This document shows, piece by piece, positions 869 to 63,782 of a DNA stretch of 64,000 nt. The number at the start of each line of letters is the position of its first letter. Within the stretch, counting starts at the first letter, position 1. The notes below the pieces were generated by a model that worked only from the letters and a program-made list of their open reading frames with translations, was not told the DNA's origin and ran no database searches. The position numbers and the translations under genes are program-made. The stretch covers positions 62,001-126,000 of the forward strand of contig NZ_WIXM01000004.1 in the NCBI RefSeq assembly GCF_010993965.1, written 5' to 3'. Origin of the DNA: Gracilibacillus sp. YIM 98692. Its GTDB lineage: Bacteria; Bacillota; Bacilli; Bacillales; Amphibacillaceae.

Positions 869-891
869 ACCCGCTAACCGTTAAAGGTTGC
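869..891 (-). promoter_or_regulatory. Conserved leader motif, copy A
   Basis: Read on the minus strand: GCAACC, six loop bases, GGTTAGCGGGT. The AACC/GGTT arms form a short hairpin and GC/GC can extend it past a bulged A. It is identical to copy B (2971-2993) and nearly identical to copy C (63760-63782). The sequence upstream (ATTCTTTTACTTTTA) is also shared with copy C. A putative -10 box TACATT lies just before it near 920; the -35 box is unclear. Confidence 0.8.
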
Positions 892-948
892 TACTTAAAA
901 GTAAAAGAATTCAATATAATGTAACTATATATGATCAATCTAGAATTT

Positions 949-2520
949 TCAAGTAAACGAACGGATAAGATCTTTCACTCTTGTTAGCATAGAGGAGTAT
1001 GCATGTTGCTCCATTTTATTGGATTTCACCTGTTCAAAAAGGTCTTGAAAAGGTTGCTCTAATTTTCGCTTGGCTTTCCTATCCTCGATTAGCGGTTTTG
1101 TTTGATAGTAATTATTGTCAATTTCTTCACTAAGATTAGGAATGCAGGTTAGTAAAGGAATATCCAATTTTGTAGCTAGTTCTTTCTCTCTTACTTTTTC
1201 CCCTTTTTTCATCACAATCAACTGCACATTGAGATCAAACGATTTCTTGAGTTGTTCAATATATCTTTTCCATGCCAACATACGAGCATAGTTTCCATTT
1301 ACCATCACCCACAATTCATCTACTTGATGTAAAGCAGATAACGAGTATGATTCCATTTCTCCAGAAGGAAAATCTAAGAAAACACAATCATATTTTTTGA
1401 TAGAATGAATTGCTTCTTCAATAAAAAATAGATCTGCCCCAAGTTCCCAATTCGTTTCATTAAAGACAGTTACATCATGTTTAGCTAACGGATACCAACT
1501 GACACCTCGGTAGTACCAATTAATTGGTTTATATTCCGGTTTTTCCACTGTCCTTTCTAAATAAGACTTCCATCCATCTGGTACTTCCGTTACTCGCTGT
1601 AAAATGGTTTGGATTTCTTGATGAGATTTCATACATTCCATTACGGCAGTTGGTATACGGTGATATCCAAAATAGATACCTAAATTCATGGCCAATGTCG
1701 TGACACCATTTTGCGCTACTGGAGACCACATTCCAATTGTTTTATTCCGATCATAAATATAATCAGAAAGCCCTCCCTTACGATATTCATTCGTAACTTG
1801 CAGCACAGTATCTCGATCAATTTTCCCTTCTTCTCTTAAAGAGTTCGCTTCATTAGAACTATTATCACTATCTTTAGAACCAGGTGAGGTTGATGCGGTT
1901 GCTTCTCTTTGGTTAATATCTTTTTTCGATTGATCAGTATTTGGTGCTACAGACTTCTCAGACTCTTCTTTTAGAATGTCTTTTTCTTCTTCTTTCTTCT
2001 CTTGTATATCCGTTATTGTTTCTTTCTCCTCAGCCTTCGTGTTGCAGTTCTTTGTATCAGTATTTGACTCTTTTGTTTGTTTTCCCTCCACTTTTTGTTT
2101 TGGATTGGGGGTATTCTTATGTTTTTGGGTATGGTTTTTCGGTGTGTTATCCATCACTGACGGATTTATCAAGTTTTTGGCCATAGACCACTTATGTAAG
2201 GATGTTAGAGATCGGAAAACTTTAATATGCTTTGATAAAGCGTAAGACTCCTGTTCATTTGGATTAATATAATAGATCTCTCCTTTATCATCCGGCAAGG
2301 TTTTTACGTCTTCCCAATAATACATATCCATGACTAATATAAAGTCGTTCTCTTTTTCCATCATTTGCGTGACAGCTTTCCTGTCTGTTAACCATTCCTG
2401 TTCCACTCTATCTTGATCGCTTTCTGTAAAAATACTGTTTATTAACTTTTTTAGTTTATCGCTCCCCCACTCTTGCTCTTGAAAGATCTTATCCGAGATA
2501 GCTAAAAATATCTTTTGCAT
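949..2520 (-). CDS. TadZ/ParA-like P-loop protein with degenerate Walker A
   Basis: A 523-residue protein. I chose the ATG at 2518-2520 because GGGAGAAGG precedes it; an upstream start would add ten residues. The N-terminal ~110 residues may be a receiver-like module. Then comes a long low-complexity Lys/Glu/Asn-rich linker (about residues 125-240), then a ParA/TadZ-like domain with WSPVAQNGVTTLAMN in place of Walker A and YDCVFLDFPSG as the Walker B-like strand. The usual P-loop lysine is missing. It overlaps the XRE gene by about 32 bases, so the two are probably translated together. TadZ-type proteins position pilus machines or act as landmarks. The window's main Tad operon lies 37 kb away and has two more proteins of this kind, so this may be a third member or a divergent partition protein. 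Confidence 0.6.
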   Translation of the reverse strand: MQKIFLAISDKIFQEQEWGSDKLKKLINSIFTESDQDRVEQEWLTDRKAVTQMMEKENDFILVMDMYYWEDVKTLPDDKGEIYYINPNEQESYALSKHIKVFRSLTSLHKWSMAKNLINPSVMDNTPKNHTQKHKNTPNPKQKVEGKQTKESNTDTKNCNTKAEEKETITDIQEKKEEEKDILKEESEKSVAPNTDQSKKDINQREATASTSPGSKDSDNSSNEANSLREEGKIDRDTVLQVTNEYRKGGLSDYIYDRNKTIGMWSPVAQNGVTTLAMNLGIYFGYHRIPTAVMECMKSHQEIQTILQRVTEVPDGWKSYLERTVEKPEYKPINWYYRGVSWYPLAKHDVTVFNETNWELGADLFFIEEAIHSIKKYDCVFLDFPSGEMESYSLSALHQVDELWVMVNGNYARMLAWKRYIEQLKKSFDLNVQLIVMKKGEKVREKELATKLDIPLLTCIPNLSEEIDNNYYQTKPLIEDRKAKRKLEQPFQDLFEQVKSNKMEQHAYSSMLTRVKDLIRSFT

Positions 2521-2731
2521 ATAATTCCTTCTCCCGTCGTAAAAAATCATTCACTCTTTTTCGTAGTGGTTGCGTGACCGGGGTTTTATAATTTTCAATT
2601 TGACCGAGATAACTAACCGATATCCCCAAATCTTTTGCAAATTGATACTGACTTTTGTTTAACCGTTTTCGTAATAAAATGATTCGTTCATGGTCATTTT
2701 CGATATAAACCATATCTTCTAAAGAGTTCAT
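2489..2731 (-). CDS. XRE-family helix-turn-helix regulator
   Basis: An 80-residue DNA-binding protein with a helix-turn-helix at about residues 13-60 (LRKRLNKSQYQFAKDLGIS, then VSYLGQIENYKTP). The start chosen is the ATG at 2729-2731, which follows GAAAGGAAGG. A longer frame starts inside the leader terminator and is unlikely. It heads a two-gene operon with the P-loop protein and is divergent from the Rad52/clamp operon. An inverted repeat at 2898-2918 between the two promoters is a candidate binding site, so it may regulate both directions. That link is inferred. Confidence 0.8.
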   Translation of the reverse strand: MNSLEDMVYIENDHERIILLRKRLNKSQYQFAKDLGISVSYLGQIENYKTPVTQPLRKRVNDFLRREKELYAKDIFSYLG

Positions 2732-2748
2732 CCTATCCTTCCTTTCAC

Positions 2749-2803
2749 AAAAAAAACCACCAACAAATGACTCTCCATGCATGGAAAGTCTTCTGTTAGC
2801 GGT
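2749..2803 (-). terminator. Leader terminator D, before the XRE gene
   Basis: Minus-strand arms ACCGCTAACA (2803-2794) and TGTTGGTGGT (2765-2756) pair over ten positions with two G-U pairs. An inner stem (GACTTTCC/GGAGAGTC) extends it, and eight T's follow. It sits immediately before the ribosome binding site. The first arm is also complementary to GTTAGCGG in leader copies A-C. Confidence 0.8.
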
Positions 2804-2853
2804 TGTCGCTTTACATATATATGGGTTGTTTAAAGTAATAGTATGTTGCGGAT

Positions 2854-2883
2854 ATTATATCATAGATTTTGTGATTTAATAAA
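2854..2883 (-). promoter_or_regulatory. Promoter of the XRE/P-loop operon
   Basis: Minus strand: TATAAT at 2859-2854 with a weak TTTATT 18 bases upstream. It lies about 50 bases before leader terminator D and diverges from the promoter of the Rad52 operon. Confidence 0.55.
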
Positions 2884-2897
2884 GGGTTGCTATTTTT

Positions 2898-2918
2898 TTC
2901 TCATTTTTATTGAGAAAC
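2898..2918. promoter_or_regulatory. Inverted repeat in the divergent promoter region, possible operator
   Basis: TTTCTCA, about seven bases, TGAGAAA. It overlaps the -35 box of the plus-strand promoter and lies just upstream of the minus-strand promoter. It is a natural place for the XRE regulator encoded next door to bind, though nothing proves that it does. Confidence 0.4.
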
Positions 2919-2938
2919 AAATGGAAATCCTCTATACT
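2910..2938 (+). promoter_or_regulatory. Promoter of the Rad52/clamp operon
   Basis: TTGAGA at 2910-2915, a 17-base spacer and TATACT at 2933-2938. The bases that follow (GTGTATTCTTTT) recur after the equivalent promoter at 63722-63727, so promoter and transcript start are conserved together. Confidence 0.75.
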
Positions 2939-2970
2939 GAAGGTGTATTCTTTTCATTTTGAACTTTTTG

Positions 2971-2993
2971 GCAACCTTTAACGGTTAGCGGGT
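2971..2993 (+). promoter_or_regulatory. Conserved leader motif, copy B
   Basis: GCAACC-N6-GGTTAGCGGGT about 25 bases after the expected transcript start. It is the same 23-base element as copy A and precedes a terminator hairpin in the same way. Confidence 0.8.
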
Positions 2994-3010
2994 ATTATAT
3001 AACAGATTAA

Positions 3011-3087
3011 AGAGCCTTTGAGGTTCATGGTTTATACGTACTTTATGGATATACGTATAACATGATACTTCAAGGGCTCTTTTTTTG
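3011..3087 (+). terminator. Leader terminator B
   Basis: AGAGCCTTTG (3011-3020) pairs with CAAGGGCTCT (3071-3080) and seven T's follow. An inner stem TTATACGTA/TACGTATAA stabilises it. It lies about 55 bases before the first gene of the operon, so it would block that operon by default. Confidence 0.85.
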
Positions 3088-3142
3088 TTACACAAAAAAT
3101 TCTTGATGAGAGGATACAACATCATACTAAGGAGGTTATATC

Positions 3143-4114
3143 ATGTCAAAATCATGGGGAGAGATCATGGAAGCATTACAAAAACCGTTTCGTGATGAAG
3201 AAATGGAGTGGCGACCACAACATGCAATCCAAAGAAATCAAGGGTATAAACTACTGGTGTTACCTTATGTGCAAGGTCATGCGATCCAAACACGTTTAGA
3301 TGAAGTTCTTGGTCCAAACTGGTCGGATGATTACGAATCCATTCAAGTAAACGGAAAAGAAGCTTTCCGAGGTAAACTGTCTATTAAAGTGGATGGCGAA
3401 TGGGTTACCCGAACGGATGCAGCAGAAGTTTCTAACATTGAGTCAGTTAAGGGTGGTCATACGAATGCCTTTAAACGAGTTGCTGTGAAATTTGGCATTG
3501 GAAGGTACTTATATAACGTTGACCCTGTTTGGGTTCCACTCTTAGATAAAGGAGATATCCGTGTAAATGGTTGTTTTAAAATCAACGGAAAAGAGTGTTA
3601 TCTCCAGGGAGGATTTCAACGTCCAAGCTTACAAGGAACAAAAGCTATGATACCTAGTCATTCTCATAAGCAGCAACAAACCAATCAGCCTAATGGCCAT
3701 CCGGATCCATCTCCTAACCAAACATCTTACACCGAACAAGATGTTACGACAGACCAATGGAAATGGATTCGAAAGACAGAAACGCTATTGGAGCTTAAAG
3801 ATGACTATATTATACGAATCTTTAACAAAGCTAACCAATCCGCTTTTCAGAGTGTCCAACAAATTCGTCAAGAAGCCAATGCAAAGCAGTTGCGTGCATA
3901 TTGTTTGGTATTACAACCCGTACGCACTTTAGCATTACTTCCTAAAAAATTTACGAATTGTTCATTAGAAGAAGTGCTGACGTTTGCTCAAACCTATAAA
4001 CCAGAGGTACACGTTACAGATATTTACTCTTTATTTTTCCAATTATCTAAAGAGGATTTAGAGCAAATTATTGATTTAACAAAAAGAGCACATATACAGA
4101 GACAAACTGCTTAA
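3143..4114 (+). CDS. Rad52-family single-strand annealing protein
   Basis: A 323-residue protein. Residues ~10-160 match the Rad52/22 family found in phages and plasmids: a PF-x4-EMEWRPQ start, YVQGHAIQTRLDEVLGPNW, WVTRTDAAEVSNIESVKGG, then the signature AFKRVAVKFGIGRYLYN. Family members coat single-stranded DNA and anneal complementary strands in recombination or repair. The C-terminal half after a Gln/Pro-rich linker (~170-200) has no clear match. The start follows CTAAGGAGG. It is first in an operon with the plasmid beta clamp, so a role in plasmid replication or repair is likely. The operon is preceded by leader B. Confidence 0.85.
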   Translation: MSKSWGEIMEALQKPFRDEEMEWRPQHAIQRNQGYKLLVLPYVQGHAIQTRLDEVLGPNWSDDYESIQVNGKEAFRGKLSIKVDGEWVTRTDAAEVSNIESVKGGHTNAFKRVAVKFGIGRYLYNVDPVWVPLLDKGDIRVNGCFKINGKECYLQGGFQRPSLQGTKAMIPSHSHKQQQTNQPNGHPDPSPNQTSYTEQDVTTDQWKWIRKTETLLELKDDYIIRIFNKANQSAFQSVQQIRQEANAKQLRAYCLVLQPVRTLALLPKKFTNCSLEEVLTFAQTYKPEVHVTDIYSLFFQLSKEDLEQIIDLTKRAHIQRQTA

Positions 4115-4139
4115 TTTTCCAAGCAGTTATCAGAGGTAG

Positions 4140-4188
4140 ACACAAGAAGGAGTTTAAAAAATTAATCTCCTGTTTGTGTCTTTTTTTA
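4140..4188 (+). terminator. Intrinsic terminator between the annealing protein and the clamp gene
   Basis: GACACAA and GGAG pair with CTCC and TTTGTGTC around an A/T loop, followed by seven T's. Promoter-like sequence between this hairpin and the next gene is not obvious, so downstream genes may depend on read-through. Confidence 0.8.
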
Positions 4189-4219
4189 TAACCAAAATAG
4201 AACTAGGAGGAATTATGAG

Positions 4220-5335
4220 ATGAAATTTACTGTAAATAACAACACATTGCTTGAGGCATTAAATAAGGTATCCAAGGTAGTAACAAACAAGGGGAATGTT
4301 CCCGTTTTATCAAACATTTATTGTGAGGTAAATGAGACAGAGTTAACGTTAATTGGGTCTAACTCGCAAGAATCGATTACTCACCGATTACCTGTTGATG
4401 ACGATGCTATATCGGTTTCTACCATTGGCTCTACCCTACTACCTAAGAAAACTGTGGACATTGTAAAAAAAGTAAAAAAGGATATCACTTTTTCACTAGA
4501 GGATAATTGTCTTGAAATTAAATCAGGAAAAAGCAAGTTTAACTTGAACACTATGGATCCAGAAGAGTTCCCTAAAATTCCTGAAGTGAGTATGGATAAG
4601 CCAACGATAACTTTTCAAGGGGGCGAATTTAAGACATTTATCATACGCACCGCATTTGCAGCTGCGAAAAGCGAATCACGTCCCGTTCTTCAAGGGGTAC
4701 AATATCGTGTAGAAGATAATTGTCTTTTCTTAAATTCGACAGATAGTCATCGATTGGCCCAAGTACAATATCAAACAAATGAAACAGAGGATATGAGTAT
4801 TATCGTTCCAGCTAATGCATTAGATGTAGCTTTAAAAATATTTGATGACAAAGAAACAGTCGAAATATTTATGAAAGATGACATATCCCTCCACATGAAA
4901 AACGGTGATACGATATTTACTACGCGTCTACTGGATGGTAACTATCCAGACGTCAACAGATTAATACCAGAGGATTTTAAGACGGTCATAAAAATGAATC
5001 GAAAAGAAATGTTAGAAGGATTAGAACTGGTGGGTGAAATAACAGAAGGTGACCAATCCATTACCAAGCTTCACATTAATGGAGTGGCCTCTTTCCAGGC
5101 ACATGGATCTCAGCGAGGAAATGGAAAAATTGATATTCCATACCTCGAATTAGAGGGAGAAGATGATTTTACACTTTCTTTCTCTATTCCATATGCTGTA
5201 GAGGCTTTAAAAGCAATGGAAGCGGATGTCGTGGAAGCGAAATTCGTTGATCCCATGAAACCTTTTTTATTAACACCAAAAGAAACGACTGATATAGAAG
5301 AATTACAATTAATTCTTCCTGTGAGAACGATATAA
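4220..5335 (+). CDS. dnaN: DNA polymerase III beta sliding clamp, plasmid copy
   Basis: A 371-residue protein close to the usual ~378 for bacterial beta clamps and collinear with the family: MKFTVNNNTLLEALNKVSKV at the start, the first domain ending near FPKIPEV, and a second domain with SRPVLQGVQY and NSTDSHRLAQ. The C-terminus (DPMKPFLLTP, then LILPVRTI) matches the end of the third domain. The clamp tethers DNA polymerase and repair enzymes to DNA. A plasmid copy could serve the plasmid's own replication or recruit partners such as the annealing protein upstream. The start follows AGGAGG. It is flanked on both sides by intrinsic terminators. Confidence 0.92.
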   Translation: MKFTVNNNTLLEALNKVSKVVTNKGNVPVLSNIYCEVNETELTLIGSNSQESITHRLPVDDDAISVSTIGSTLLPKKTVDIVKKVKKDITFSLEDNCLEIKSGKSKFNLNTMDPEEFPKIPEVSMDKPTITFQGGEFKTFIIRTAFAAAKSESRPVLQGVQYRVEDNCLFLNSTDSHRLAQVQYQTNETEDMSIIVPANALDVALKIFDDKETVEIFMKDDISLHMKNGDTIFTTRLLDGNYPDVNRLIPEDFKTVIKMNRKEMLEGLELVGEITEGDQSITKLHINGVASFQAHGSQRGNGKIDIPYLELEGEDDFTLSFSIPYAVEALKAMEADVVEAKFVDPMKPFLLTPKETTDIEELQLILPVRTI

Positions 5336-5342
5336 GCCCAAA

Positions 5343-5384
5343 AAGAGTGTATAATTCCAGGAATTATGCACTCTCCTTTTTTCT
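5343..5384 (+). terminator. Intrinsic terminator after the clamp gene
   Basis: GAGTGTATAATTCC pairs with GGAATTATGCACTC (one mismatch) and a T run follows. The next gene's ribosome binding site begins only a few bases later, the same arrangement as in the operon leaders. Confidence 0.8.
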
Positions 5385-5399
5385 TAGGAGGATAAAAAT

Positions 5400-5729
5400 A
5401 TGAAATTTAACTTTGATACATTTAGTCAATTGCTACATGAAAACAAATCAGAGGTTAAAAGAGATCAAACAGGCTTGTACAACGTCATTAGTGTCATTTG
5501 GAGCTTACGCGATATTGAAGATATCAATTTCGATGCTTTTTCCTCTGATGATGTGTTACAAGCTTTAGAAACATTCCAAGATGCCCCGATGCACTATTTA
5601 GTTATGAACGAAAGCTTATTGCTAGACCCTCAAAATCCTTTTGTCAAATATTATGAAATGGAAGGTACGGTGGCAAAAGTGCATCAAGCAAAGCGAATGT
5701 ACCCATTAGACGATGATGATTTCATTTAA
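5400..5729 (+). CDS. Hypothetical acidic protein in the JAMM/ThiF operon
   Basis: A 109-residue acidic protein with no family I recognise, no signal peptide and no membrane segment. The start follows TTAGGAGG and the next gene starts 12 bases after its stop. Its place between the clamp gene and the JAMM/ThiF genes suggests it belongs to that cassette. It could be a ubiquitin-like or partner protein, but it lacks an obvious C-terminal di-glycine (it ends DDDDFI). Confidence 0.6.
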   Translation: MKFNFDTFSQLLHENKSEVKRDQTGLYNVISVIWSLRDIEDINFDAFSSDDVLQALETFQDAPMHYLVMNESLLLDPQNPFVKYYEMEGTVAKVHQAKRMYPLDDDDFI

Positions 5730-5741
5730 GGAGGTAATAAC

Positions 5742-6398: not shown

Positions 6399-9300
6399 AT
6401 GAAAGATGCAAAGCAAACAGATATTTTTGGACGTGCGACACGTTCTTAACTGAAAAGGTTAAGCATTAGTCTTATTTGACTAAGAGAACTATTATTCCAA
6501 GAAGTCAAATGATTGGGTAACGCCATGAAGGGCTTCCTCTGATACTCCGATATGCATAAGGTAAGTAAAATACCAAGTGTTTAATAGCTCGGTGAAGGCG
6601 GCTGAGCGATACCGTAACAGCAGTTTAGGCTGACGAAAGTTCTCTAGAGGTAGAGAATGTATCCTATAGGTCGGGAGTCTATATAAACCTATGAACAGAA
6701 TGTTCACAACGCTATTTTTCAAGCTAGAACTGACGAATTTCCGAATGTACGGGTCTATAAAATAACTGAATAGAAAGTGTTTAGTGTCCCAATTAGGGAA
6801 GTGATCGTGGATGAGTAAGAATGTCCGATATGAAAATCCATAATGTGTTATAGGCACATTCAAAATCACAGGCTCAAAGGAAAGTTCTAAGGGTTTATTT
6901 GCAGATAGGAATAATGGAACGTGGTAAACCTACTACATGGAGATTTTTACTGTCATTGAAATGGTATAAGGAAAATCATTAATGATATTAGTTAATGATA
7001 TAACTTATTTTAAGTAGGTGAAGGTGGTGGCACAGTACCGTAGAAACGTTGTAACTAACGTGGAGGGATAGCCACTAGTCTAGCAGAAGATTAACCCATC
7101 AATACTAGAATTTCTTAACAATGTTATAAGGTTCTGGTGAGACTAAAAGAAGTTCTTCTCCTAGAAAGGAGAGACTGACTTATAACAATCGCGAAGAAAA
7201 AGAGTAAATTAAGACACAATGAATATTATACTGTCCAAGATACTTTGGACACATTATATAAAAGAAGTCTTAATAACAACAATTTTTATAACCTTATAGA
7301 GATAATGAAAAGTGAAGAAAACATTAGACTAGCTTATAGAAACATCAAAAGTAATAAAGGTAGTAAAACAGCGGGAACCGACGGCCTTACCATTAAGGAC
7401 ATTCAAGAGATGAATATTGATAGTGTCATTAGCAGTATTCAAGAAATGTTCGTATGGTACAAACCTAAAACGGTTAGAAGAACTTATATTCCTAAACCTA
7501 ATGGTGATGAGAGACCGCTTGGTATACCGACAATTTGGGACCGACTATTTCAACAATGCATTCTACAAATCCTAGAACCTGTTTGTGAAGCAAAATTTCA
7601 TAATCACAGCTATGGTTTCAGACCCAATCGAAACACACACCATGCAATAGCACGTATGAACACTCTAAAATAGAAAGAAGTTATACTGCGTTGACATGGA
7701 TATAAAAGGTTTCTTTGACAATGTTAATCATAGCAAATTGCTGAAACAAATTTGGAACCTTGGAATAAAGGACAAAGCACTAATCTCTATTATTTTTCGT
7801 TTATTAAAAGCGGAAATCGAAGGCGAAGGAATTCCCAACAAAGGAACACCCCAAGGTGGTATCCTTAGTCCCCTACTCTCTAACATCGTATTAAACGAAT
7901 TAGATTGGTGGATAAGTGACCAATGGGAAACCTTTAAAACATCCTTCCCTTTCAAAACAGAGAAAAACAAATTTGTACCTTTAAAGAAAACCAACTTAAA
8001 AGAATGCTTTATTGTTAGATATGCAGATGACTTTAAAATTATCTGTTCAAGCTTTCCGGATGCTAAAAGAATGTATTACGCTACACAAAACTTCTTAGAA
8101 AAACGACTAGGACTTCAAATAAGTCCTGAAAAGTCTAAGGTTATCAACCTCAAGAAACAAAGTAGCGAATTTCTCGGCATTAAAATCAAAGCCTTACCGA
8201 AAGGTAAAAAGCATATAGCGAAGTCGGCTATGACCGAAAAAGCTAAGGATAATGCTAAGGCTAAGATTAAAAATGAGATCATCAAAATTCAAAAGTGTCC
8301 TAAAGCTGAAACAGTCTGGAACTTCAACTCTGTTGTAATACAAAACTATTACAAAATTGCTACCAATATTACACTAGATCTAAAGGAGATAAACTTCCCA
8401 TTAAGAGTCTCAACTTATAATAGACTTAAAGAAAATATTGCAGAAGCTAAATTTGAGAATATGAACAAAACACTACAAAAACGATATAAGAGTTACAAAC
8501 CAACACTTGCGAAGATACAAAACACAGTATTGGTTCCCATTTATGCCCAAAAGCACAAATCGGGCATGAACTTCTCTCAAGATATAAGTAACTATACTGT
8601 ACTTGGGAGAAAAAAGATTCATGACAAACTCAGAAACGTTGATAGAACAGTGTTAGCTCTCCTAACAAAAGAGTATATTAGAGGAACAAGTATTGAGTAT
8701 AACGACAACCGTATTTCGAAATTCATAGCTCAAAATGGAAAATGTGCAATTACAGGTATTCCACTAGCTATTAATGAAATACACTGTCATCATAAAAAGC
8801 CAAGAGAATTCGGCGGTAATGATAAATACCATAACCTAATAATTGTTCATAAAGATATACACAAGTTGATACACTCAACTAATAAAGAGAAGGTCAAAGC
8901 TCAAATCAAAAGCTATAGTCTAAATAAAAAGCAAACTCTGAAGTTCAACAACTTGAGAGTTAAGGCACACAGAAAAGCAATATAAGGTTGTGGGTTAATA
9001 AGAACTAGATGGGGCGCCGTATGCAGTGAAAGCTGCACGTACGGTGTTAGACGGGGGAAAAGCTGGAGATAACTTCAAAGGCTTACCTATCGTCACTTTT
9101 CGGTATCGAAGATGAATATGCAAAGAAAAAAGAGGAAGAACGTAAAAGAAAAGAAAAAGAGCAACAAGAGTTGATAAAAAAACAGAAGGAAGCGACCAAG
9201 TCTAACCCAAGTTCCAAAAAGGAGCCATTCAAGTTGGAAATGGATACTCGTATTTATTTCTATAACAATGAATACCAGGTGTCTGATTTCTTCACAGATG

Positions 9301-10013
9301 AAGAAGTGGAGCTTGGATTGCCTTCCAAAAAAGACGGAGAATTAGAGTATAAGCCTATTTCTGAAGCTGATATCAAAAGCAGACTATCAAAAGAAATACC
9401 GGTATTACAAGTTGGTGCAGACCTTATTCACAAAACTTATAAAAATACGCCAAATGTTTTGGTCGTTACCATCAAGGCTAAGAAAAAAGGAAATTGTTCA
9501 CAGGAGAAAGAGTCTAAAGAAGGCTCTTTTTCTACTTCTATTCAAAAAATCCCTTTTTCCATTGTTCAAGAGTTTCTCGGGATTGCAAAATATTTCTCGG
9601 ATTACTACTCCACCGAAGTTCATGGCGATATCTATTTTGATACACATGAGGAGACATTTTCTCTTCACATCCCTACCCAACACGCACATACATTTTGGGT
9701 AGAACCCAGGGAAAGTGATGAAGAAATTCTCACGAGAATGATGGAAAATCGAGATGAAATGAAAGTAATGGAGATTCATTCACATCATGTCATGCCAGCT
9801 GTACCATCTGATCAAGATGATGAAAGTGAAGTTTTTCCGATACTTTATACTATTGTAGGAAGAATCAATCAATTTTTTCCGGACATAAGCGTTCGTACTT
9901 ATGATATGAAGAATCAGCAGCATATCAAGATTAACCCATTTTCCGTTTTTGAAAACCCTCTATATACGTATCCTACTAACGATTCCTTGGATGCCGTGGA
10001 GGTGATTTCATGA
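6399..10013 (+). CDS. JAMM/MPN-type peptidase gene, split by a group II intron (exons 6399-6432 and 9097-10013)
   Basis: Exon 1 begins at the ATG after AGGAGGAATGAAAG and encodes MKDAKQTDIFG. Removing the intron at GTGCG (6433) to AC (9096) joins it in frame to exon 2 (LFGIEDEYAKKKEEE), giving a 316-residue protein. The N-terminal part is a charged helix. The C-terminal domain has the JAMM zinc motif H-x-H-x7-S-x2-D (H239, H241, S249, D252), with an upstream Glu in STEVHGDIYF as the likely catalytic acid. JAMM enzymes cut isopeptide bonds or ubiquitin-like tails. The last codons overlap the ThiF gene by four bases, so the two are translationally coupled. The pair resembles the JAB and ThiF members of PRTRC-type plasmid cassettes. 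Confidence 0.75.
6433..9096 (+). mobile_element. Group II intron inserted in the JAMM-peptidase gene
   Basis: The left end GTGCG matches the group II 5' consensus. The right end follows a domain V hairpin at about 9015-9047 (CCGTATGCAG and CTGCACGTACGG around a GAAA loop) and a domain VI stem ending CTTACCTATCGTCAC. It carries a reverse transcriptase/HNH reading frame (7188-8985). Excision at these ends restores the host frame exactly, which supports the boundaries. About 750 bases of ribozyme domains I-III precede the reading frame. Splicing would be needed to make the JAMM protein, and the maturase frame is broken, so splicing may be impaired unless another maturase helps. Confidence 0.85.
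7188..8985 (+). pseudogene. ltrA: Group II intron reverse transcriptase/maturase with HNH domain, frameshifted
   Basis: The frame opens near 7188, where an ATC follows AAAGGAGAG; the first standard start is a TTG at 7245. It encodes the reverse transcriptase N-terminus (GTDGLTIKDIQ, then RRTYIPKPNGDERPLGIPT) and stops at 7673. The rest resumes in another frame at about 7675 with LYCVDMDIKGFFDNVNH, then the catalytic YADD box (RYADDFKII), the maturase domain, and an HNH nuclease (CAITGIPL, then HCHHKKPREFGGND and NLIIVHKDIHKLIH). One extra A in the AAAA run near 7667 explains the break; dropping it gives a continuous frame. So the protein is either recently inactivated or hit by a sequencing error. 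Confidence 0.85.
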
Positions 10014-10879
10014 TTGATCTTCTACGATATAAAAAATATCTACCCTATCGATCCGTATACCCTTTTATCATTGTAATAGGTACAGGTGGTACAGGTGGTT
10101 ATCTTGTGCAACATATCGCACAAATGATGTCCACTTTTAACGTGCAAGGCCAGCTACTTGTCGCAGACCCTGATATTGTGGAAGAGAAAAACTTAAAAAA
10201 TCAATTATTCACGAAGAGAGATATTGGTAAAAAGAAAGCAAATGTCCTAGCTGACCGCTATCGTAGAGCGTATCAAATACCTATTCGCAGTTATAGTGAA
10301 GGCTATATCGAGGACGTGGAGTCATTAAAGAATCTCTTCAACTTAGATTATCTAGGTGTTGGAATCCATTCCTATCATACCTTGTACCTTCCTGTTATTA
10401 TCGGTGCAGTTGATAATAATTTTACTAGACAAGTTATACACCAATTTTTTGAAAGTACAAGCAGATGTTTATACATCGATGTAGGAAATGAATCCGCTAC
10501 TGTTCCTTCTGATTACCCAGAAAGGCGGAAAGAAGAATGGACACAGCAAGAGCGCCAAGCTTATGATGAATCAGGTTGGATTGGTCAAGTGATATGTGGC
10601 TTGAAATTCGATGGTGAAACGATCCTTCCACCAGTGGGAGAAGTGTTTCCTGATGTCTTAGCTGACAAAGACGATATAGCACCATCGCAAATTAGTTGCT
10701 CCGATTTAACGGCTAGCGACCCACAACGTGTTTTAACAAATAAGATGGCTTCTATGAGTGTTTTACCTTATCTCAATAGTTTTATGGAGGAAGGTGTATT
10801 ATATCACTCTATAACGTTTTTTAACGCCCAAAAAGGCTATATAAATAGTCAAGAGATACCTAATAAGCGAGAAGAATAA
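10010..10879 (+). CDS. ThiF/E1-like adenylyltransferase, PRTRC-type
   Basis: A 289-residue protein with the ThiF/MoeB/E1 nucleotide-binding fold: GTGGTGG at residues 24-30, then D-x-D-x-V-x4-NL-x2-Q at about 53-65 (DPDIVEEKNLKNQ). A late Cys in ISCSDLTASDPQR is a candidate for thioester chemistry. Family members activate the C-terminus of a ubiquitin-like or sulphur-carrier protein by adenylation. The ATG overlaps the stop of the JAMM gene (ATGA). E1-like plus JAMM-like enzymes side by side suggest conjugation and removal of a small modifier, but no clear modifier with a C-terminal glycine is visible here. Confidence 0.8.
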   Translation: MIDLLRYKKYLPYRSVYPFIIVIGTGGTGGYLVQHIAQMMSTFNVQGQLLVADPDIVEEKNLKNQLFTKRDIGKKKANVLADRYRRAYQIPIRSYSEGYIEDVESLKNLFNLDYLGVGIHSYHTLYLPVIIGAVDNNFTRQVIHQFFESTSRCLYIDVGNESATVPSDYPERRKEEWTQQERQAYDESGWIGQVICGLKFDGETILPPVGEVFPDVLADKDDIAPSQISCSDLTASDPQRVLTNKMASMSVLPYLNSFMEEGVLYHSITFFNAQKGYINSQEIPNKREE

Positions 10880-28353: not shown

Positions 28354-29247
28354 ATGGCGATAGAGTCATGGAAATCACAAGAGGAACTAGAGGAATTAGC
28401 AAGAAAGCATCGTACACAGGAAATTACGGAAGGGGTCATCCAATCGGTTGGTACTCGTAAATTACCAGTAACCGATGAAAATGGTAGAACAGAAACCAAA
28501 GAGGTAGAGGTTGCTTTCTTCATGCTTGAAGGAGGCATTATGGGATATTGCCCTGCGCATGAGTTTTCTGATCGCTCCTTCCGCTCGTTAGTCGGTTTCG
28601 TCGGTCAAATTAAAGAATTTGTCATAGATCGTATTGAGTTAGAAGAACGAATTGCCATTGTCAGTGTACGAAAAGCAGATGAAAGAAAAAGAGAGGCATT
28701 TTGGACGGAGTTAAAATCCCTAGAAGAACGTAATGAATTGCAAGATCATACCTTTGAAGGCATTATTAATGGGGTAAATCCTGATACAAATCGCATCTTT
28801 GTTCGTATTAATGGTGCTGATTGCTTTATGTCGCCTAGAGATTGGGCACATGGGCGTACTCGTGATCTACAGGAAGAAGCGGAACGTGGTAAAAAGATTG
28901 CAGTAAAAGTATTACGTATGGATGAAGAGCGCAACTTAATACAAGTTAGTCGTCGTCATGCGATGGACGATCCATTTGATAAATTGGAAGCTTTACGCAA
29001 TATGGATGCTGTTGCAGGTAAAGTATCCGAAGTACACGCTATACATGGGATCTTTATACAATTAGATTTGGGACTAGAGGTAAAAGGAATAAAACCTCGT
29101 TATTTAGAAGAGCCTATCGCCGGTGATATTGTTACATGTAAAGTACGCACCATTGATCGAGAACGTCGTCATGCTAAAGTGGTCATTGTAGGGTATCCTC
29201 GTGGGAAGAAAAAAAGAAAAGACGCAGGATCGTTCCTTTTTAGCTAA
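28354..29247 (+). CDS. S1-domain RNA-binding protein
   Basis: A 297-residue protein related to ribosomal protein S1. About three S1-type stretches are visible: a first around 25-110, a second with TFEGIINGVNPDTNRIFVRI, and a third with VAGKVSEVHAIHGIFIQLDL. S1 modules bind RNA; in NusA, Rho and S1 they act in transcription or translation. A plasmid S1 protein sitting behind its own leader terminator is a reasonable candidate for controlling those leaders, but that is only inference. It ends in a basic KKKRKD-like tail. The start follows TAAGGAGG. Confidence 0.8.
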   Translation: MAIESWKSQEELEELARKHRTQEITEGVIQSVGTRKLPVTDENGRTETKEVEVAFFMLEGGIMGYCPAHEFSDRSFRSLVGFVGQIKEFVIDRIELEERIAIVSVRKADERKREAFWTELKSLEERNELQDHTFEGIINGVNPDTNRIFVRINGADCFMSPRDWAHGRTRDLQEEAERGKKIAVKVLRMDEERNLIQVSRRHAMDDPFDKLEALRNMDAVAGKVSEVHAIHGIFIQLDLGLEVKGIKPRYLEEPIAGDIVTCKVRTIDRERRHAKVVIVGYPRGKKKRKDAGSFLFS

Positions 29248-58716: not shown

Positions 58717-58992
58717 TATATGCAGGGACTTTATTTGCGATGAAACCATATAGTTGTAATAATCTGACTTGTAAAGACAACCTTTATTTATGCTTATGTT
58801 TATTGTTTCTCATTTCCTTTAGACGTATCAAATGGGTTTCAACAATATGGCGCTAACCATGAAAAGGTTAGTGTCTTTTTATTATGTATGTAAGGTTGTA
58901 TAATCTGTAAAATTCCCGATTGTTGAATAAAATTAATAAACAGTGAACATACTGATCCTAGTTTTAAATCCGATTTATAGGAGTTGAAGAGA
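58717..58992. other. Gap before the integrase gene
   Basis: About 275 bases with no supported gene. A weak hairpin (GCGCTAACC/GGTTAGTG near 58850-58875) uses the same GGTTAG word seen in the leader motifs, but it has no following terminator. Confidence 0.35.
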
Positions 58993-59835
58993 TTGCTAGT
59001 ATCACAGGTTTGGGATAGATATGTGTCTGATAAGAAAATTGAAGGGTATTCAGCCCTCACTATGAGAAACTATCATTATCAGTTTTGTGTATTGATTCGG
59101 TATTTTGGGGACATAGACTTAAATGAATTTTCTACAGAGTTATTGAAGGGATTTTTTGTTAAGGAGGGGGCAAATCTAAAACCATCCAGTTTGGGCCATA
59201 AGATAAGATTTCTAAAATCTTTATTTAACTGGGCTTATGAAGAAGGGTACTTATTAAAAAATCCAGCAGCAAAAATTAAAGAACCCAAATTGGGAAAAAG
59301 AATCCCTAAGTATCTTTCTGAACAAGAGATTGAACTATTACGGGAAGCTTGTCAAAATTCAATGGAAAAAGCTCTATTCGAGTTTATGTATTCAACGGGC
59401 TATAGAATTGGTGAAATTACAAAGCTTAATCGAAAAGACATTAATCTTCAATCTCAGTCTGTTATTGTTAGTGGTAAAGGAGATAAAGAGAGGGACGTTT
59501 ATTATAATGTCAGATGTGATATTTGGCTGAAGAGGTATTTGGATGAGAGGCATGATGACGATCCTTCCTTGTTCGTAACGGAGAGAAGACCTCAACATCG
59601 GATGAGTGTTGATTTAATGAGATACATCATAAAGAGAATTTCAAAACGTGCTGGCATAAACAAAAATATTCATCCTCACCAACTTAGGCACAGTTATGCA
59701 ACACATTTAATGAATAATGGTGCTCCTATAGAAGTAATTCAAAGTTTGTTAGGACATGAAAAAAGCGAAACGACTAAAGTTTATGCTCAATTGAGTGGGA
59801 AACTAAGACATACGTTTTATAGTCAATATTTTTAA
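58993..59835 (+). CDS. Tyrosine recombinase (XerC/D-type integrase)
   Basis: A 280-residue protein starting with TTG at 58993 (AGGAG nine bases before; an upstream TTG at 58984 is too close to it). All catalytic residues are present: R138 (YRIGEI), K162 (GKGDKER), H229-x2-R232 (HQLRHSYATHL), H255 (LLGHE) and Y264 (VYAQL). It should catalyse site-specific recombination. It is a good contrast to the degenerate relative at 18059. No attachment site could be defined. Confidence 0.85.
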   Translation: MLVSQVWDRYVSDKKIEGYSALTMRNYHYQFCVLIRYFGDIDLNEFSTELLKGFFVKEGANLKPSSLGHKIRFLKSLFNWAYEEGYLLKNPAAKIKEPKLGKRIPKYLSEQEIELLREACQNSMEKALFEFMYSTGYRIGEITKLNRKDINLQSQSVIVSGKGDKERDVYYNVRCDIWLKRYLDERHDDDPSLFVTERRPQHRMSVDLMRYIIKRISKRAGINKNIHPHQLRHSYATHLMNNGAPIEVIQSLLGHEKSETTKVYAQLSGKLRHTFYSQYF

Positions 59836-60451
59836 GAGGAAAACAATACAGTTGTGCTCTTTTTTTGTGTTTGGACCAGACTGTAAAGTAATTATTGTGT
59901 TACGTAGTAGACTCTTACTGCGCAATAAGCAACTTCTGTTTTAGAAAATTCACTCCGTCACAAATATGGCTCGGTCTGTTTGTTCTTGAATGTAACGATT
60001 TAACCAAATATCACATCTGATATTAAAATACACTTTCCTTATCTCCTTTCCCTTTTATAATCGCTAACCAATATCCCAATTAAGAAACTTCTTATTTACT
60101 GAAACAATCTCTCCAATTCGACAACCCTATAAATACATTTTGAGTGTGTGAGAGGAATTGTTTTCATATTTATGGAAAATAAGAACGAAATTTATCTATT
60201 TTCTGGTAAAATTATGTTATGTAGAATTTTGATTTTGTGAAGTAATGTGGAATTAGAAAATAGTGATTTTTAACTGCTGAGTAGACGTTATAGTTTACAA
60301 TAAGTAATTTTGCTTAAAAAGAATGTGCTTTAGAATAAAGAAGTTTTATTTATAAGTGCTAGGTATATAAACAATCAGGTCAATAAGTGGATGACTTAAT
60401 GGTCGTTACGTTTATTTGTTTCTAACCATTTATTTTATAGGAGTTGAATTT
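59836..60451. other. Gene-free stretch
   Basis: A weak terminator (AGAG...CTCT with a T run, 59835-59868) follows the integrase. After about 60000 it becomes very A/T-rich, with no gene. The promoter for the following gene must lie near 60300-60440 but no clear boxes stand out. Confidence 0.45.
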
Positions 60452-62335
60452 ATGTCTAAAGAAAACTTACCATTAAGACATATTAGTCATGAACAAGAAT
60501 TTGAGAGCCGTATAAAGTTCGAAAATCTAATTCCAATGAATAAATTTATATATCGAGAAGAATCAGGAGGTGATTATGGAACAGACTCGATTTTAGAAAT
60601 AATAAAAGAGAGTGGTATGGTGACTAATTATAGATCTCATGTTCAAATAAAAAGCAAAAGAGTAACCAAACGTTTAAAAAATGGGAGTGTTAGTTTTCCG
60701 GTAGAAGTAAAAACAATAAATTACCTAATAAACACACCAAGTTCGCTTTATTTTTTATATTTAAAAGATGAAGGAAAGTTTCTTTGGGAATGGGTAGCAA
60801 ATATTTATGAACGATTTCATAGAGATGGTTATGATTTAGCAACAACACCTAAAAAAAAGATTAATTTTCACTTTAATAAAGAGTTAGATTCAGCTTCATT
60901 CGATACAATTTATAATACTATGCGAGAAGCAGACGAAAAATTAAGAGAATCACTAAAATCTAACATTGCCTTTCAACCGATATCACAATTAAAACTAATA
61001 TATGCTAGACATTCTTCCATTTTTAGTGATTTTGAGGAAGATGAGTCTAGTATTCTAAAGAGTTTTGAGGATAAATACCAAACAGCAGAGAAGTTATTTG
61101 AACAAGAACAATACAATGAAGCACTACAAGAGTATAAAAATATATTAACTTTTTTGAAATCAAATAAACAAATAAATTTGAAATGTGCCGCTCTGACAGA
61201 AATTTTAGGAAAATATGATGAATGTATTGAATACTGTGATACTTTATTAGAACATGAAGAAATTGAAGAAGCTTATATTATGAAGGGGACCTGTAAAGGA
61301 TTTAAAAAAGAGTATGATGAAGCAATTAAACTTATCTTAAAGGCTATCGAGATACGACCTTCAATAATATCGTACCATAACTTAGGTTACATTTATTTAT
61401 TAAATGAAAAGGTGAAGCTTGCTATTGAGAGTTATGAAAAATGTATTGAGATTGATCCGTCATATTCACCAGCTTATTTAAATTTAAGTATTTGTTATTT
61501 AGATCAATATAAAGTTGATAAATCAATAAAGTACATAAATAAAGCAATTGAACTGGATCCTAATTCACATTTCGCATATGCTGCTAAAGGAGATATTAAT
61601 AAGTTTTTAGGATTGTATAATGAAGCAATAAAAGAATATGAAAAGTGTTTGAGTATTGACTCTAGTCATTATCCAGCTTTATTAAATATTTCTCTAAGTT
61701 TATTTGCGCTAGGAAAAAATAATGAAGGTTATATTCATTTACGAGATTTATTGAAAAATCATGAAAATAAGTTATTTTCTAAAGGGAAAAATGCATTAAT
61801 ATTTGATTTAGGATGGGATAATACTGTAAGTTTTGCTATGGAAAAAATTGCTGATGGTAAGGTGAAAATTTCTAATTTAAATGGTTATGAACGATATCTT
61901 GAATATAAGACTAATGATTTCATTCAAATTGGTGTAATATCACATGGTAAGATTGAAGGCTGTCTTCCTATTGTAGGGAAAAAATTTGAAAAAGATAGAA
62001 GTTATAAGGAAGTAATTACCCAAATAAAAAAAAGTATCAAATTAAAAGAAAATCACCATCTGCTAATTAGTGAAGAAAATGATATTAAAGTGAAAATAAA
62101 GGAAAAGGAGAAAAATGTTTATCAAGAAATAGACTTTGGAGGTAAATATTGTATAAGCGGTATGACCTCTCTTGAAGAAAAAGAGGATGGTAAGTATAAG
62201 TCTGGATTTAATTTTTTTGCTTTCTTTTATAAAATTGGAGGAGAAGCTGCAATTTTATTAGAGAATTTAGAAAAAGGAGAGGAAGTACTAATAGGTCCGA
62301 TTAAAGAAGTTGAAATTGACTCCTTTGAAAAATAA
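60452..62335 (+). CDS. DUF4365 plus TPR-repeat protein
   Basis: A 627-residue protein. The ATG at 60452 follows TATAGGAG and fits better than an earlier ATG. Residues 5-150 match DUF4365 (YREESGGDYGTDSILEI, then VQIKSKRVTKR, YLINTPSSLYFLYLKDEGKF), a nuclease-like fold often near defence genes. A run of about eight TPR-like repeats follows (roughly 210-460, for example YLLNEKVKLAIESYEKCIEI). The C-terminal 150 residues have no clear match. The fold suggests a nucleic-acid nuclease paired with a protein-interaction scaffold, so anti-phage or plasmid-protection roles are possible. Confidence 0.65.
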   Translation: MSKENLPLRHISHEQEFESRIKFENLIPMNKFIYREESGGDYGTDSILEIIKESGMVTNYRSHVQIKSKRVTKRLKNGSVSFPVEVKTINYLINTPSSLYFLYLKDEGKFLWEWVANIYERFHRDGYDLATTPKKKINFHFNKELDSASFDTIYNTMREADEKLRESLKSNIAFQPISQLKLIYARHSSIFSDFEEDESSILKSFEDKYQTAEKLFEQEQYNEALQEYKNILTFLKSNKQINLKCAALTEILGKYDECIEYCDTLLEHEEIEEAYIMKGTCKGFKKEYDEAIKLILKAIEIRPSIISYHNLGYIYLLNEKVKLAIESYEKCIEIDPSYSPAYLNLSICYLDQYKVDKSIKYINKAIELDPNSHFAYAAKGDINKFLGLYNEAIKEYEKCLSIDSSHYPALLNISLSLFALGKNNEGYIHLRDLLKNHENKLFSKGKNALIFDLGWDNTVSFAMEKIADGKVKISNLNGYERYLEYKTNDFIQIGVISHGKIEGCLPIVGKKFEKDRSYKEVITQIKKSIKLKENHHLLISEENDIKVKIKEKEKNVYQEIDFGGKYCISGMTSLEEKEDGKYKSGFNFFAFFYKIGGEAAILLENLEKGEEVLIGPIKEVEIDSFEK

Positions 62336-62895
62336 AGTTAGAATTTAAAAATTACTAGACAGGACTATTGTTTTTTTATTTTTAAATTTCTAGGAGGATA
62401 TGACAGTTCGAAGGTCTATGATGGCTGGAATTGCTATATGAACAATTAAATGTTTATGATACTTGAGAATATGTTAACAGGAGTATAAAAAGCATTCGAT
62501 TCGAATTATTGCGCAGTACAAAGATACTGTTCAGCAATCGAGGCGCGATTGTGGAAGAAAACTTAGATTTTTAAACGAATTTATTGTTATATTTTAAAGT
62601 ACAGTGAAGTATCTACATCTCTTTGATGGAGAATATATGGATCCTTCTCGTCAAAAAGTGGAACAGATCTGAAAGAAGTGTCTACTGTAACCTTAGAGTT
62701 TGTGGTGGAGTATTCAACTGGAGTTATAAAAAATCACCTTGTTGATGTAAAAATCATTGTTAATGTATATGATGCTGCTGATTTACACCGTATAAACTAA
62801 GAAGGGAAGCGGGATACTGTGGGTATCCCCTGCCTTTTTGTTATGTCACTTATAGACTGTAGACAATAATAAGGTGTAATAATACGCTTACTTTT
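62336..62895. other. Gap with a gene remnant
   Basis: Near 62680-62800 a plus-strand frame reads VSTVTLEFVVEYSTGVIKNH, then DVKIIVNVYDAADLHRIN to a stop, with no start or ribosome binding site, so it is a tail fragment. A hairpin (GCGGGATAC/GTATCCCCTGC plus a T run, 62808-62845) closes it. Confidence 0.45.
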
Positions 62896-63126
62896 ATGGA
62901 GAATAAAGAAGCAATGCCATCAATTAAACAAATCTTTGGAAATAATATGAGGAAAAATCGGTTGGAACGAAATTTGTCCCAGGAACAATTAGCTTTTGAA
63001 ACCAATTTACATCGGACATACATAAGCGAAGTGGAAAGAGGAAAACGGAACATTTCAATAGAAAATATAGAGCTGATCGCAAAAGCTTTAGATATTCCTA
63101 TAGCTGAACTTTTTAAATCGCAGTAA
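62896..63126 (+). CDS. XRE-family helix-turn-helix regulator
   Basis: A 76-residue DNA-binding protein with a classic helix-turn-helix (NNMRKNRLERNLSQEQLAFE, then RTYISEVERGKRNISIENI). An ATG at 62914, with GGAG eleven bases before it, is an alternative start. Probably regulates nearby accessory genes. Confidence 0.65.
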   Translation: MENKEAMPSIKQIFGNNMRKNRLERNLSQEQLAFETNLHRTYISEVERGKRNISIENIELIAKALDIPIAELFKSQ

Positions 63127-63328
63127 ATTATGGAAATGGAAGGTTGCATCATTTAGATTCGTTGTTCTATGATATAATATAAACGGATTTTTTATTTTTT
63201 TATTTTTTTGTTTTTTATTGCGGAATTCTACAATTTGAAAATAAATAAATACATATACTATTAATATAATAAATACCGTTTTATTCGATATAATATAAGA
63301 AATGATTTAGTATAAGGGGTTTTTTAGT

Positions 63329-63697
63329 ATGCCGGTGTTAGAGGATGTAATGCACATGAATCCATCAACAAATGATGAAATGAAAAATAGCAGTTATATT
63401 TATCGGAAATCTTTCTTCCTAAAAAATGAACATACTATTGTTGAGACGGCCTCTCTATCGGTCGAGACGATAGAAGTTTTAGATGATGTGGTTGATCGAA
63501 CTTTAGATATGGGCGCTTCTGATATCCGGGAACATCCAATAGGTACGTTAACGGTAGAAGTACAAGAAAGAGTAAAAAGATTAGAAGAATATGAGGAAAT
63601 ATATGTAATGCCGAAAGCAATTTATAAAAAATTAGTAGAAGAGTATTCTCATAACTTATTTGATATTCCAACCGAATATATGATTTTACTAAATTGA
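63329..63697 (+). CDS. Hypothetical protein before leader C
   Basis: A 122-residue acidic protein. The start follows AAGGGG. The central part (RLEEYEEIYVMPKAIYKKLV) is helix-forming. No family recognised. It ends just before the promoter of leader C. Confidence 0.6.
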   Translation: MPVLEDVMHMNPSTNDEMKNSSYIYRKSFFLKNEHTIVETASLSVETIEVLDDVVDRTLDMGASDIREHPIGTLTVEVQERVKRLEEYEEIYVMPKAIYKKLVEEYSHNLFDIPTEYMILLN

Positions 63698-63727
63698 TTG
63701 AAGTTTGACTGTAGGGTTTGCTATACT
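63698..63727 (+). promoter_or_regulatory. Promoter of leader C
   Basis: TTGAAG, 18 bases, TATACT (63722-63727). The sequence after it (GTGTATTCTTTTACTTTTA) is shared with leaders A and B. Confidence 0.7.
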
Positions 63728-63759
63728 AAACGTGTATTCTTTTACTTTTATTTTAGTTA

Positions 63760-63782
63760 GCAACCTTTTATGGTTAGCGGGT
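63760..63782 (+). promoter_or_regulatory. Conserved leader motif, copy C
   Basis: GCAACC-N6-GGTTAGCGGGT with two loop bases changed relative to copies A and B while the arms are identical. This is the pattern expected of a hairpin kept for its stem. Confidence 0.8.

Follow-up and report, generated by a model that had tools for sequence, protein, structure and literature searches.

Putative attenuator-type RNA leaders recur upstream of operons in a Bacillales family of large plasmids

We analyzed a 64,000-nt window (bases 62001-126000 of the 211-kb contig NZ_WIXM01000004.1) of Gracilibacillus sp. YIM 98692, whose 4.37-Mb genome is assembled in 69 contigs, and a short leader element that precedes several of its operons. 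The leaders appear to be built on one plan: a sigma-A-like promoter, a U-rich tract, a hairpin (P0), an intrinsic terminator and the first gene. We found that the 5′ arm of the terminator can also fold on itself as a second hairpin (P1, stem-UUUG-stem), which excludes the terminator. The shared anatomy, the covariation, the exclusion between P1 and terminator in folds, and a P0 tail that follows the plasmid were all observed or computed. With moderate confidence, we favor the reading that the leaders make up a plasmid-wide attenuation or antitermination regulon, probably for establishment genes.

Results

The leader is present in many copies on the contig and on related plasmids

The motif GCAACC-N6-GGTTAGCGGGT occurs three times in the window, each time without mismatch, at positions 869-891 (minus strand; leader A), 2971-2993 (plus; leader B) and 63760-63782 (plus; leader C). 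In shuffled sequence 0.03 matches were expected at up to 3 mismatches, and three matches were reached in 0 of 100 shuffles. Each copy has ATTCTTTT and a T-rich run on its 5′ side and a strong terminator followed by a ribosome-binding site on its 3′ side, and copy C departs from the others only in its loop (TTTTAT instead of TTTAAC). An earlier note on this DNA had described the three copies correctly. Its claim that three operons share the element was right as to the sharing and too low in its count, because the window stops there. Twenty-one leaders, 7 from the window's contig and 14 from named plasmids, served to build a covariance model (R1). Run on the whole genome at E ≤ 1, this model found eight leaders, all at E ≤ 1.3e-7 and all on the window's contig; the remaining 68 contigs had none. 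A pattern search allowing up to 3 mismatches recovered five of these eight.

Leaders in other plasmids were first encountered by blastn. At E ≤ 0.1, R1 gave 56 matches on seven named Bacillaceae plasmids, with 7-10 matches each, the weakest near chance: Halobacillus pLDW-31 (W01, 8), Cytobacillus pBO1 (W02, 8), Priestia koreensis (W03, 7), Rossellomorea p25 (W04, 10), Sutcliffiella pBH-BAT-167 (W05, 9), Terribacillus pDMT04 (W06, 7) and Niallia circulans (W07, 7). At E ≤ 1, ten matches were obtained with Niallia Man26 (W11), six, mostly weak, with Planococcus MB-3u-03 (W09), seven weak ones with a Virgibacillus plasmid (W10, NZ_CP033050.1), one weak match each with P. lenghuensis (W08) and strain C02 (W12), and none with Metabacillus pB218.

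The large genome scans were run with stricter filters, by which weak matches are lost. Own genome included, leaders were found in 9 of 159 genomes at the family level and in 27 of 397 at the order level, 16 of them with at least 3 copies; several scanned genomes are apparently the named plasmids again (equal coordinates). At the class level (E ≤ 1e-4), 5 of 398 genomes had leaders, all five within the same order. Viral contigs gave no match to one exact pattern, and phage records gave a single 33-base match (E 0.04). Stray leaders lie on large, probably chromosomal contigs (L070, G107:C2 15146; L083, G128:C1 1270762; and G270:C1 2670950); one of them precedes a secreted repeat-rich protein and another, judged by eye, a DUF6018-like gene.

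The earlier note knew of no named family with this element, and as far as Rfam goes this holds: the window gave two group II intron matches only, with the leaders unmatched, and in a permissive scan of nine leader-bearing loci six weak matches turned up, each to an unrelated family and none exceeding its gathering score. The titles and abstract openings found in a search of open-access papers contained no description of the leader element.

Promoter-like boxes lie upstream of P0

For the anatomy 160 leader matches were collected. A simple finder detected a canonical P0 in 129, of which two (W08_183779 and W02_311395) were set aside as spurious, leaving 127 leaders. The remaining 31 matches include larger-loop forms of P0, a GUC/GAC-closed variant (5 Planococcus copies), 7 P0-free Virgibacillus copies and some that look like chance. 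A GUC-closed P0 is also present upstream of the P. lenghuensis Rad52 and DUF4258 genes, R1 at Rad52 being not above chance.

Among the 127 leaders, the best -10 box lies at a median distance of 39 nt from P0 and is positioned 37-41 nt 5′ of it in 90. The sense promoter score was 9.13 of 12, when compared with 7.95 and 8.0 in two shuffled controls, and the T content of the 22 nt preceding P0 was 68%. A lenient rule, used without a shuffled control, placed a terminator in 154 of the 160 matches. Neither the promoter-like boxes, whose -10 lies ∼38 nt 5′ of the hairpin, nor the alternative hairpin in the terminator arm figured in the earlier note. Boxes in leaders A-C were called by the promoter consensus. 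The parts of the three leaders are as follows.

947-952, minus strand: leader A -35-like box TTGAAA, 17-base spacer to the -10 (read from the sequence)
924-929, minus: leader A -10-like box TATAGT, 38 nt to P0 (read from the sequence)
873-891, minus: leader A hairpin P0, GC-AACC-loop-GGTT-A-GC (motif search, covariation)
869-872, minus: leader A P0 3′ tail GGGT, its first three bases following the plasmid (permutation tests)
839-853, minus: leader A P1, TGGTC-TTTAG-GATCA, within the terminator 5′ arm (fold probability 0.62, truncated transcript)
782-857, minus: leader A intrinsic terminator and U tract (sequence and folds)
2910-2915, plus: leader B -35-like box TTGAGA, 17-base spacer (read from the sequence)
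2933-2938, plus: leader B -10-like box TATACT (read from the sequence)
2971-2989, plus: leader B hairpin P0 (motif search, covariation)
2990-2993, plus: leader B P0 3′ tail GGGT (permutation tests)
3012-3026, plus: leader B P1, GAGCC-TTTGA-GGTTC (fold probability 0.29, truncated transcript)
3009-3087, plus: leader B intrinsic terminator and U tract (sequence and folds)
63698-63703, plus: leader C -35-like box TTGAAG, 18-base spacer, with an extended -10, TGC-TATACT (read from the sequence)
63722-63727, plus: leader C -10-like box TATACT (read from the sequence)
63760-63778, plus: leader C hairpin P0 (motif search, covariation)
63779-63782, plus: leader C P0 3′ tail GGGT (permutation tests)
63798-63811, plus: leader C P1, AAGCC-TTTG-GGCTT (fold probability 0.89, truncated transcript)
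63797-63861, plus: leader C intrinsic terminator and U tract (sequence and folds)

P0 covaries as expected of an RNA hairpin

In the 21-leader alignment, 126 of 126 P0 cells were paired. Covariation was then scored on 106 matches, which were drawn from 100 chosen loci and aligned with a sequence-only model, hence fitted to no structure; the loci were chosen from earlier matches, a choice that favors P0-bearing leaders. All 590 scorable cells were paired (10 of them G-U), with 45 two-sided changes in four of the six pairs; the other two pairs were invariant. The shuffled control gave 93.7±0.4% paired cells and 9.8±2.4 two-sided cells, with 0 of 500 shuffles as high, and slid partners gave at most 35.9% pairing. 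The earlier note had proposed an RNA element with a selected stem, whose reading as a conditional leader was to be given up if compensatory changes in the AACC/GGTT arms were lacking; such changes are present, and we take P0 to be an RNA hairpin.

In another reading P0 is a DNA operator, an inverted repeat that lies 3′ of the promoter and is bound by a repressor, and the terminator is a mere insulator. Helix-turn-helix genes are indeed close to leader B (2489-2782) and leader C (62896-63126), but the arms vary yet stay complementary, with G-U cells and a one-sided bulge, the loops span 3-8 bases in the finder and more by eye, and P1 is a second hairpin of the same sort. We consider an operator highly improbable.

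P1 and the terminator compete for the same strand in computed folds

P1 was scored as pairing between the five bases on either side of a UUUG-like loop. With loops of 3-5 bases, 100 of 105 P1 cells were paired in the 21 leaders, when compared with 82.5±2.8 (maximum 92) in 2000 permutations; when the count was extended to 154 distinct matches, it came to 667 of 770 cells, and permuted partners gave 538.7±7.9 (maximum 561 in 1000). The loop word was absent in 3 of the 160 matches. In full folds at least four of the five bases of the P1 5′ stretch paired near the U tract, as part of the terminator stem, in 21 of 21 leaders. When transcripts were truncated ahead of the terminator 3′ arm, the mean probability of P1 was 0.676 (>0.5 in 85 of 116 leaders), and it fell to 0.282 when the 3′ half was swapped in from other leaders and to 0.011 in the full-length leader; nine leaders without the loop word were excluded from this computation. 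The result is clear for leader C (0.89). P1 and the terminator are mutually exclusive in the computed folds. The earlier note had proposed that a reader of the RNA element decides whether the terminator is passed. What is supported in outline is the competition of P1 with the terminator. P0 is not the whole switch, there being P0-free leaders.

The tail follows the plasmid and the P1 arm follows the operon

Five orthologous operons on six named plasmids and the window's contig, 29 leaders in all, were compared by operon and by plasmid. The rows for W04 Rad52, W06 and W07 DUF4258/DUF3854, and W05 and W07 group 125818 were left out (P0 not found, or no model match). Within-plasmid likeness of the three bases after P0 was 0.857 vs. 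0.653±0.029 in 2000 permutations, none of which reached the observed value; no within-operon likeness was detected (230 of 2000). The P1 5′ arm gave the reverse result: within-operon likeness was 0.772 vs. 0.563±0.028 (0 of 2000 as high), and there was no within-plasmid likeness (1425 of 2000). Among the 344 within-plasmid pairs that the 127 leaders provide, 48.5% had the same tail vs. 22.9±2.3% (maximum 32.3% in 2000 permutations), and little plasmid-wise effect was seen at the first P0 pair (65.7 vs. 60.6±2.5%) or the bulge (83.7 vs. 79.5±2.1%).

That (i) P1 follows the operon and (ii) the tail follows the plasmid suggests a plasmid-encoded reader. To us, the simplest cause of the plasmid-wise tail would be that a plasmid factor recognizes it; gene conversion of so short a stretch is another possible cause.

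These results bear on two further explanations. The leaders may be unregulated, with strong terminators dampening strong promoters and hairpins stabilizing the RNA. This is simple, and single leaders do occur in genomes without the S1-like protein discussed below, but it would leave the exclusion between P1 and terminator and the plasmid-wise tail without a reason, and we regard it as quite improbable. Antisense-RNA attenuation operates in plasmids of the pIP501/pAM-beta-1 type, and here too a counter-transcript could choose between P1 and terminator, the 5′ leader having paired arms and terminators. Antisense promoter-like sites are, however, not in excess (8.31 vs. 8.37 in shuffled sequence, 127 leaders), and an antisense RNA would not give a plasmid-specific P0 tail; there is very little to be said for this explanation.

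Genes behind the leaders and the plasmid family

The genes in the window that bear on the leaders are the following.

381-758, minus: DUF4258 protein gene, first behind leader A (Pfam DUF4258)
Minus strand, after the DUF4258 gene and crossing the window start: DUF3854-type protein gene (orthology to annotated genes)
3143-4114, plus: Rad52/Rad22-family protein gene, first behind leader B (Pfam PF04098)
4220-5335, plus: plasmid DNA polymerase III beta clamp (DnaN) gene, second behind leader B (Pfam)
28354-29247, plus: S1-like RNA-binding protein gene, candidate trans factor (Pfam S1; bS1-like by NCBIfam and PDB sequences)
63932-64000, plus: start of the leader-C gene (group 125818), crossing the window end (no Pfam family above cut-off)

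Operons were compared in seven plasmids (W01, W03-W07 and the window's contig). Leader matches lie upstream of the DUF4258 and/or DUF3854, Rad52-DnaN and DUF6018 operons in 7 of 7, and upstream of ArdC or helicase operons in 6 of 7, two of these weak (E 0.001 and 0.03). The DUF6018 operons usually include ssb and DUF6094 genes. Jointly, several leader operons hold ardC, ssb and other DNA-entry functions by annotation and orthology, as an establishment-gene regulon would. tblastn found no DUF6018 on the Virgibacillus plasmid; a frame behind a leader there is, judged by eye, a diverged DUF6018 copy. The DUF6018 protein model was poor (pLDDT 66), with no structure match at E ≤ 0.001.

A leader-type sequence is present upstream of the leader-C gene in 10 of 10 plasmids examined. 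The model scored six of these sequences at E ≤ 0.1 and the Planococcus one at E 0.83, and those of C02, Sutcliffiella and Niallia circulans were recognized by eye. The C02 leader is of unrelated sequence, with hairpins and a terminator arm able to self-fold; its truncated fold prefers another pairing. The model of the leader-C protein was good (pLDDT 85); its single structure match at E ≤ 0.001 was to a seryl-tRNA synthetase of a methanogen (E 2.9e-5, TM 0.43, rmsd 7) and was not used as evidence. On the C02 plasmid (W12, CP045534.1), two near-identical leaders lie upstream of 66342 (plus) and 127397 (minus), quite different in sequence from the R1 type; they have several hairpins and a terminator, precede orthologous genes, and are perhaps a replaced version of the switch.

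Reciprocal best matches gave 36 proteins common to the seven plasmids. They include PrgI-family, type IV secretion system (T4SS) pilin-family, coupling and Replic_Relax proteins, and on this account the plasmid family is probably conjugative. MOB-suite called 14 of 16 records carrying the S1-like protein non-mobilizable.

Other features of these plasmids were noted. A group II intron lies at 6484-9096 (plus) downstream of Rad52-DnaN, with an open frame at 7696-8985 and Rfam matches to D1-D4-5 at 6484-6685 and to group II at 9012-9096. At 9234-10879 (plus) a JAB-domain protein adjoins a ThiF-domain protein, a pair common to all seven plasmids and reminiscent of a ubiquitin-like pathway pair. 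Five proteins over the seven plasmids (L014 12400-12672, minus; W03 50017; W04 10523; W05 7193 and 66939) carry QLSLF as their very end (four) or QLDLF near the C-terminus (one), which we take to be the sliding-clamp binding motif; ∼0.4 were expected from shuffled tails. At least two of them are within leader operons, on plasmids having their own DnaN.

Candidates for the trans-acting factor

A Pfam scan covered 40 proteins of the contig, among them part of the 36 common proteins. The sole protein with an RNA-binding domain was a 297-aa S1-like protein, encoded between the genes of the coupling protein and the Replic_Relax protein. It is present on 12 of 12 plasmids (W01-W12), the S1 profile score being below its limit in strain C02 (W12). 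In the family scan it was found in 3 of 159 genomes, those holding 6-8 leaders. This co-occurrence is not proof, because core genes generally would show it. Distant S1-like proteins are present on Paenibacillus and other plasmids, and phage records had no S1-like protein at E ≤ 1e-10. Comparison of P0-free with P0-bearing plasmids singled out no factor. On the Sutcliffiella plasmid, a gene annotated as Hfq (L025 1614-1826) lies in the same 10-kb stretch as leaders.

Comparison with known systems

In the BglG/LicT system, the RAT, a short hairpin, shares sequence with the 5′ arm of a terminator, which cannot form while the RAT is folded. P1 overlaps the terminator 5′ arm likewise; the genes behind the present leaders, in contrast, are not sugar-related, and there is an extra hairpin, P0. 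As a plasmid-borne reader, a BglG-type protein was discarded (CAT_RBD on 0 of 12 plasmids). The own genome has two CAT_RBD proteins on other contigs, and a host protein might serve as reader.

The nearest published counterparts that we found are EGeRS1 and EGeRS2, regulatory sequences of establishment genes on pLS20-like plasmids; through these two sequence types the timing of entry genes has been described for conjugative plasmids of Gram-positive bacteria, and one of the two has no known mechanism (PMC8708921). EGeRS1 is present in several copies before scattered operons including ardC, has a structured RNA or single-stranded DNA form and blocks read-through, as the present leader would; EGeRS1, however, measures 420-751 bp on pLS20, is GC-rich and lacks a constitutive promoter (PMC8708921), whereas the present leader, of ∼130 nt, combines its own promoter-like boxes with a single covarying hairpin and a single terminator. 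EGeRS2, with Reg576 of p576, resembles the leaders in having a strong promoter per copy and an establishment-gene regulon including ardC, and it uses a DNA repressor at dual TTATCCC motifs, in contrast to a terminator and RNA hairpins (PMC8708921). The dual motif TTATCCCnnTTATCCC had no match in the window with as many as 2 mismatches allowed, where chance alone would give 0.76.

A control parallel to the Reg576 repressor, at the RNA level, can be envisaged: a plasmid factor would promote termination in settled cells, and fresh entry into a factor-free cell would give a burst of expression (zygotic induction). The gene content suits transient expression, and EGeRS2 acts through absence of its repressor (PMC8708921). 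The terminator, however, wins the full-length fold, in which P1 is nearly absent, so that absence of the factor should give the off state, not the on state. Such negative control is improbable, if by no means far-fetched.

The dfn leader read by LoaP has a hairpin followed by a leader terminator and a trans factor specific for the hairpin; that hairpin is of the UNCG type, the reader is a NusG paralogue, and the targets are two biosynthetic clusters and no plasmid regulon (PMC12691694). The P0 loops are variable, mostly U/A-rich and not of the UNCG type. Processive antitermination of the LoaP, put or lambda-nut sort would make P0 a loading site and P1 a pause hairpin rather than an antiterminator. 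The order hairpin-spacer-terminator resembles the dfn leader, for which a pause between hairpin and terminator is described (PMC12691694), and P0 would be made very early, because the -10 lies 37-41 nt upstream in 90 of the 127 leaders. P1, however, occupies the exact terminator strand with conserved pairing, and a pause hairpin needs neither; P0-free leaders retain P1; and NusG-family proteins (PF02357) matched 0 of 12 plasmids, the single NusG of the own genome being on another contig. We judge this sort of antitermination unlikely, with enough in its favor to be kept in view.

conAn of pLS20 is likewise an antitermination system of Gram-positive conjugative plasmids; it serves one conjugation operon with >20 internal terminators through the protein ConAn1 and the RNA conAn2 (PMC8955417), whereas the present element consists of many short leaders on several operons. 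Judged by its sequence, the leader would operate as attenuators that use an antiterminator hairpin do, and it falls outside every family tested here.

Discussion

We infer conditional read-through, a default off state, a factor, a trigger and an establishment role. RNA polymerase would start at an ordinary promoter and make the U-rich 5′ end, P0 and then P1, whose 5′ strand would double as the terminator 5′ strand. By default, the terminator would displace P1 and transcription would end before the first gene. A plasmid-encoded factor may read P0 and its 3′ tail, and probably also the P1 UUUG loop, and either hold P1 in place or modify the polymerase, which would allow transcription of the operon. 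The switch would most likely activate establishment functions after transfer, because the operons encode DNA-processing and anti-defense-like functions (Rad52, DnaN, SSB, ArdC, a DUF6094 methyltransferase-like protein, helicases and a DUF3854 protein). The judgments on the alternatives overlap with this attenuation reading and with each other and need not add up to certainty.

Several observations weigh against the attenuation reading. First, P0 is lacking from all seven Virgibacillus W10 matches and, as judged by eye, from a single copy on each of Niallia W07 and W11, all of which retain the U-rich tract and P1/terminator; the model search used P0, and hence the share of P0-bearing leaders is biased upward. 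Second, in rigid alignment columns P1 was 76.2% (first set) and 82.7% paired, well under P0, and the P1 of leader B is weak (probability 0.29 for the truncated transcript). In leader A the loop is UUUAG and not the usual UUUG, and its P1 was therefore scored in a separate computation (0.62 at its true position in the truncated fold); in the operon and plasmid comparison the loop word picked for it is not its P1, so that its arm was miscounted, to the disadvantage of our reading. Third, kinship of the plasmids could partly produce the plasmid-wise tail. Finally, the six single-leader genomes of the family scan are without the S1-like protein, and NZ_CP062791.1, which bears a full leader, has no S1-like match at E ≤ 0.001, which weakens the S1-like protein as the factor.

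More tentatively, and with the balance tilting against it, each plasmid lineage may encode its own RNA-reading antitermination factor that matches the P0 and tail code in its leaders, a third kind of establishment control. If so, one factor would open all entry operons together, and of its own plasmid only. Two candidates for such a factor are the S1-like protein, which is encoded in the conjugation cluster and might travel with the plasmid to the recipient, and the leader-C protein, which would in that case regulate its own gene.

To the two sequence types described on pLS20-like plasmids these data add a compact, promoter-bearing putative RNA leader, present in many copies across a Bacillales plasmid family and with a clear two-state computed fold. 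The plasmid-specific tail offers a way to search for the factor, and the leader itself may serve to trace uncharacterized entry genes, any gene behind one being a candidate establishment or anti-defense gene.

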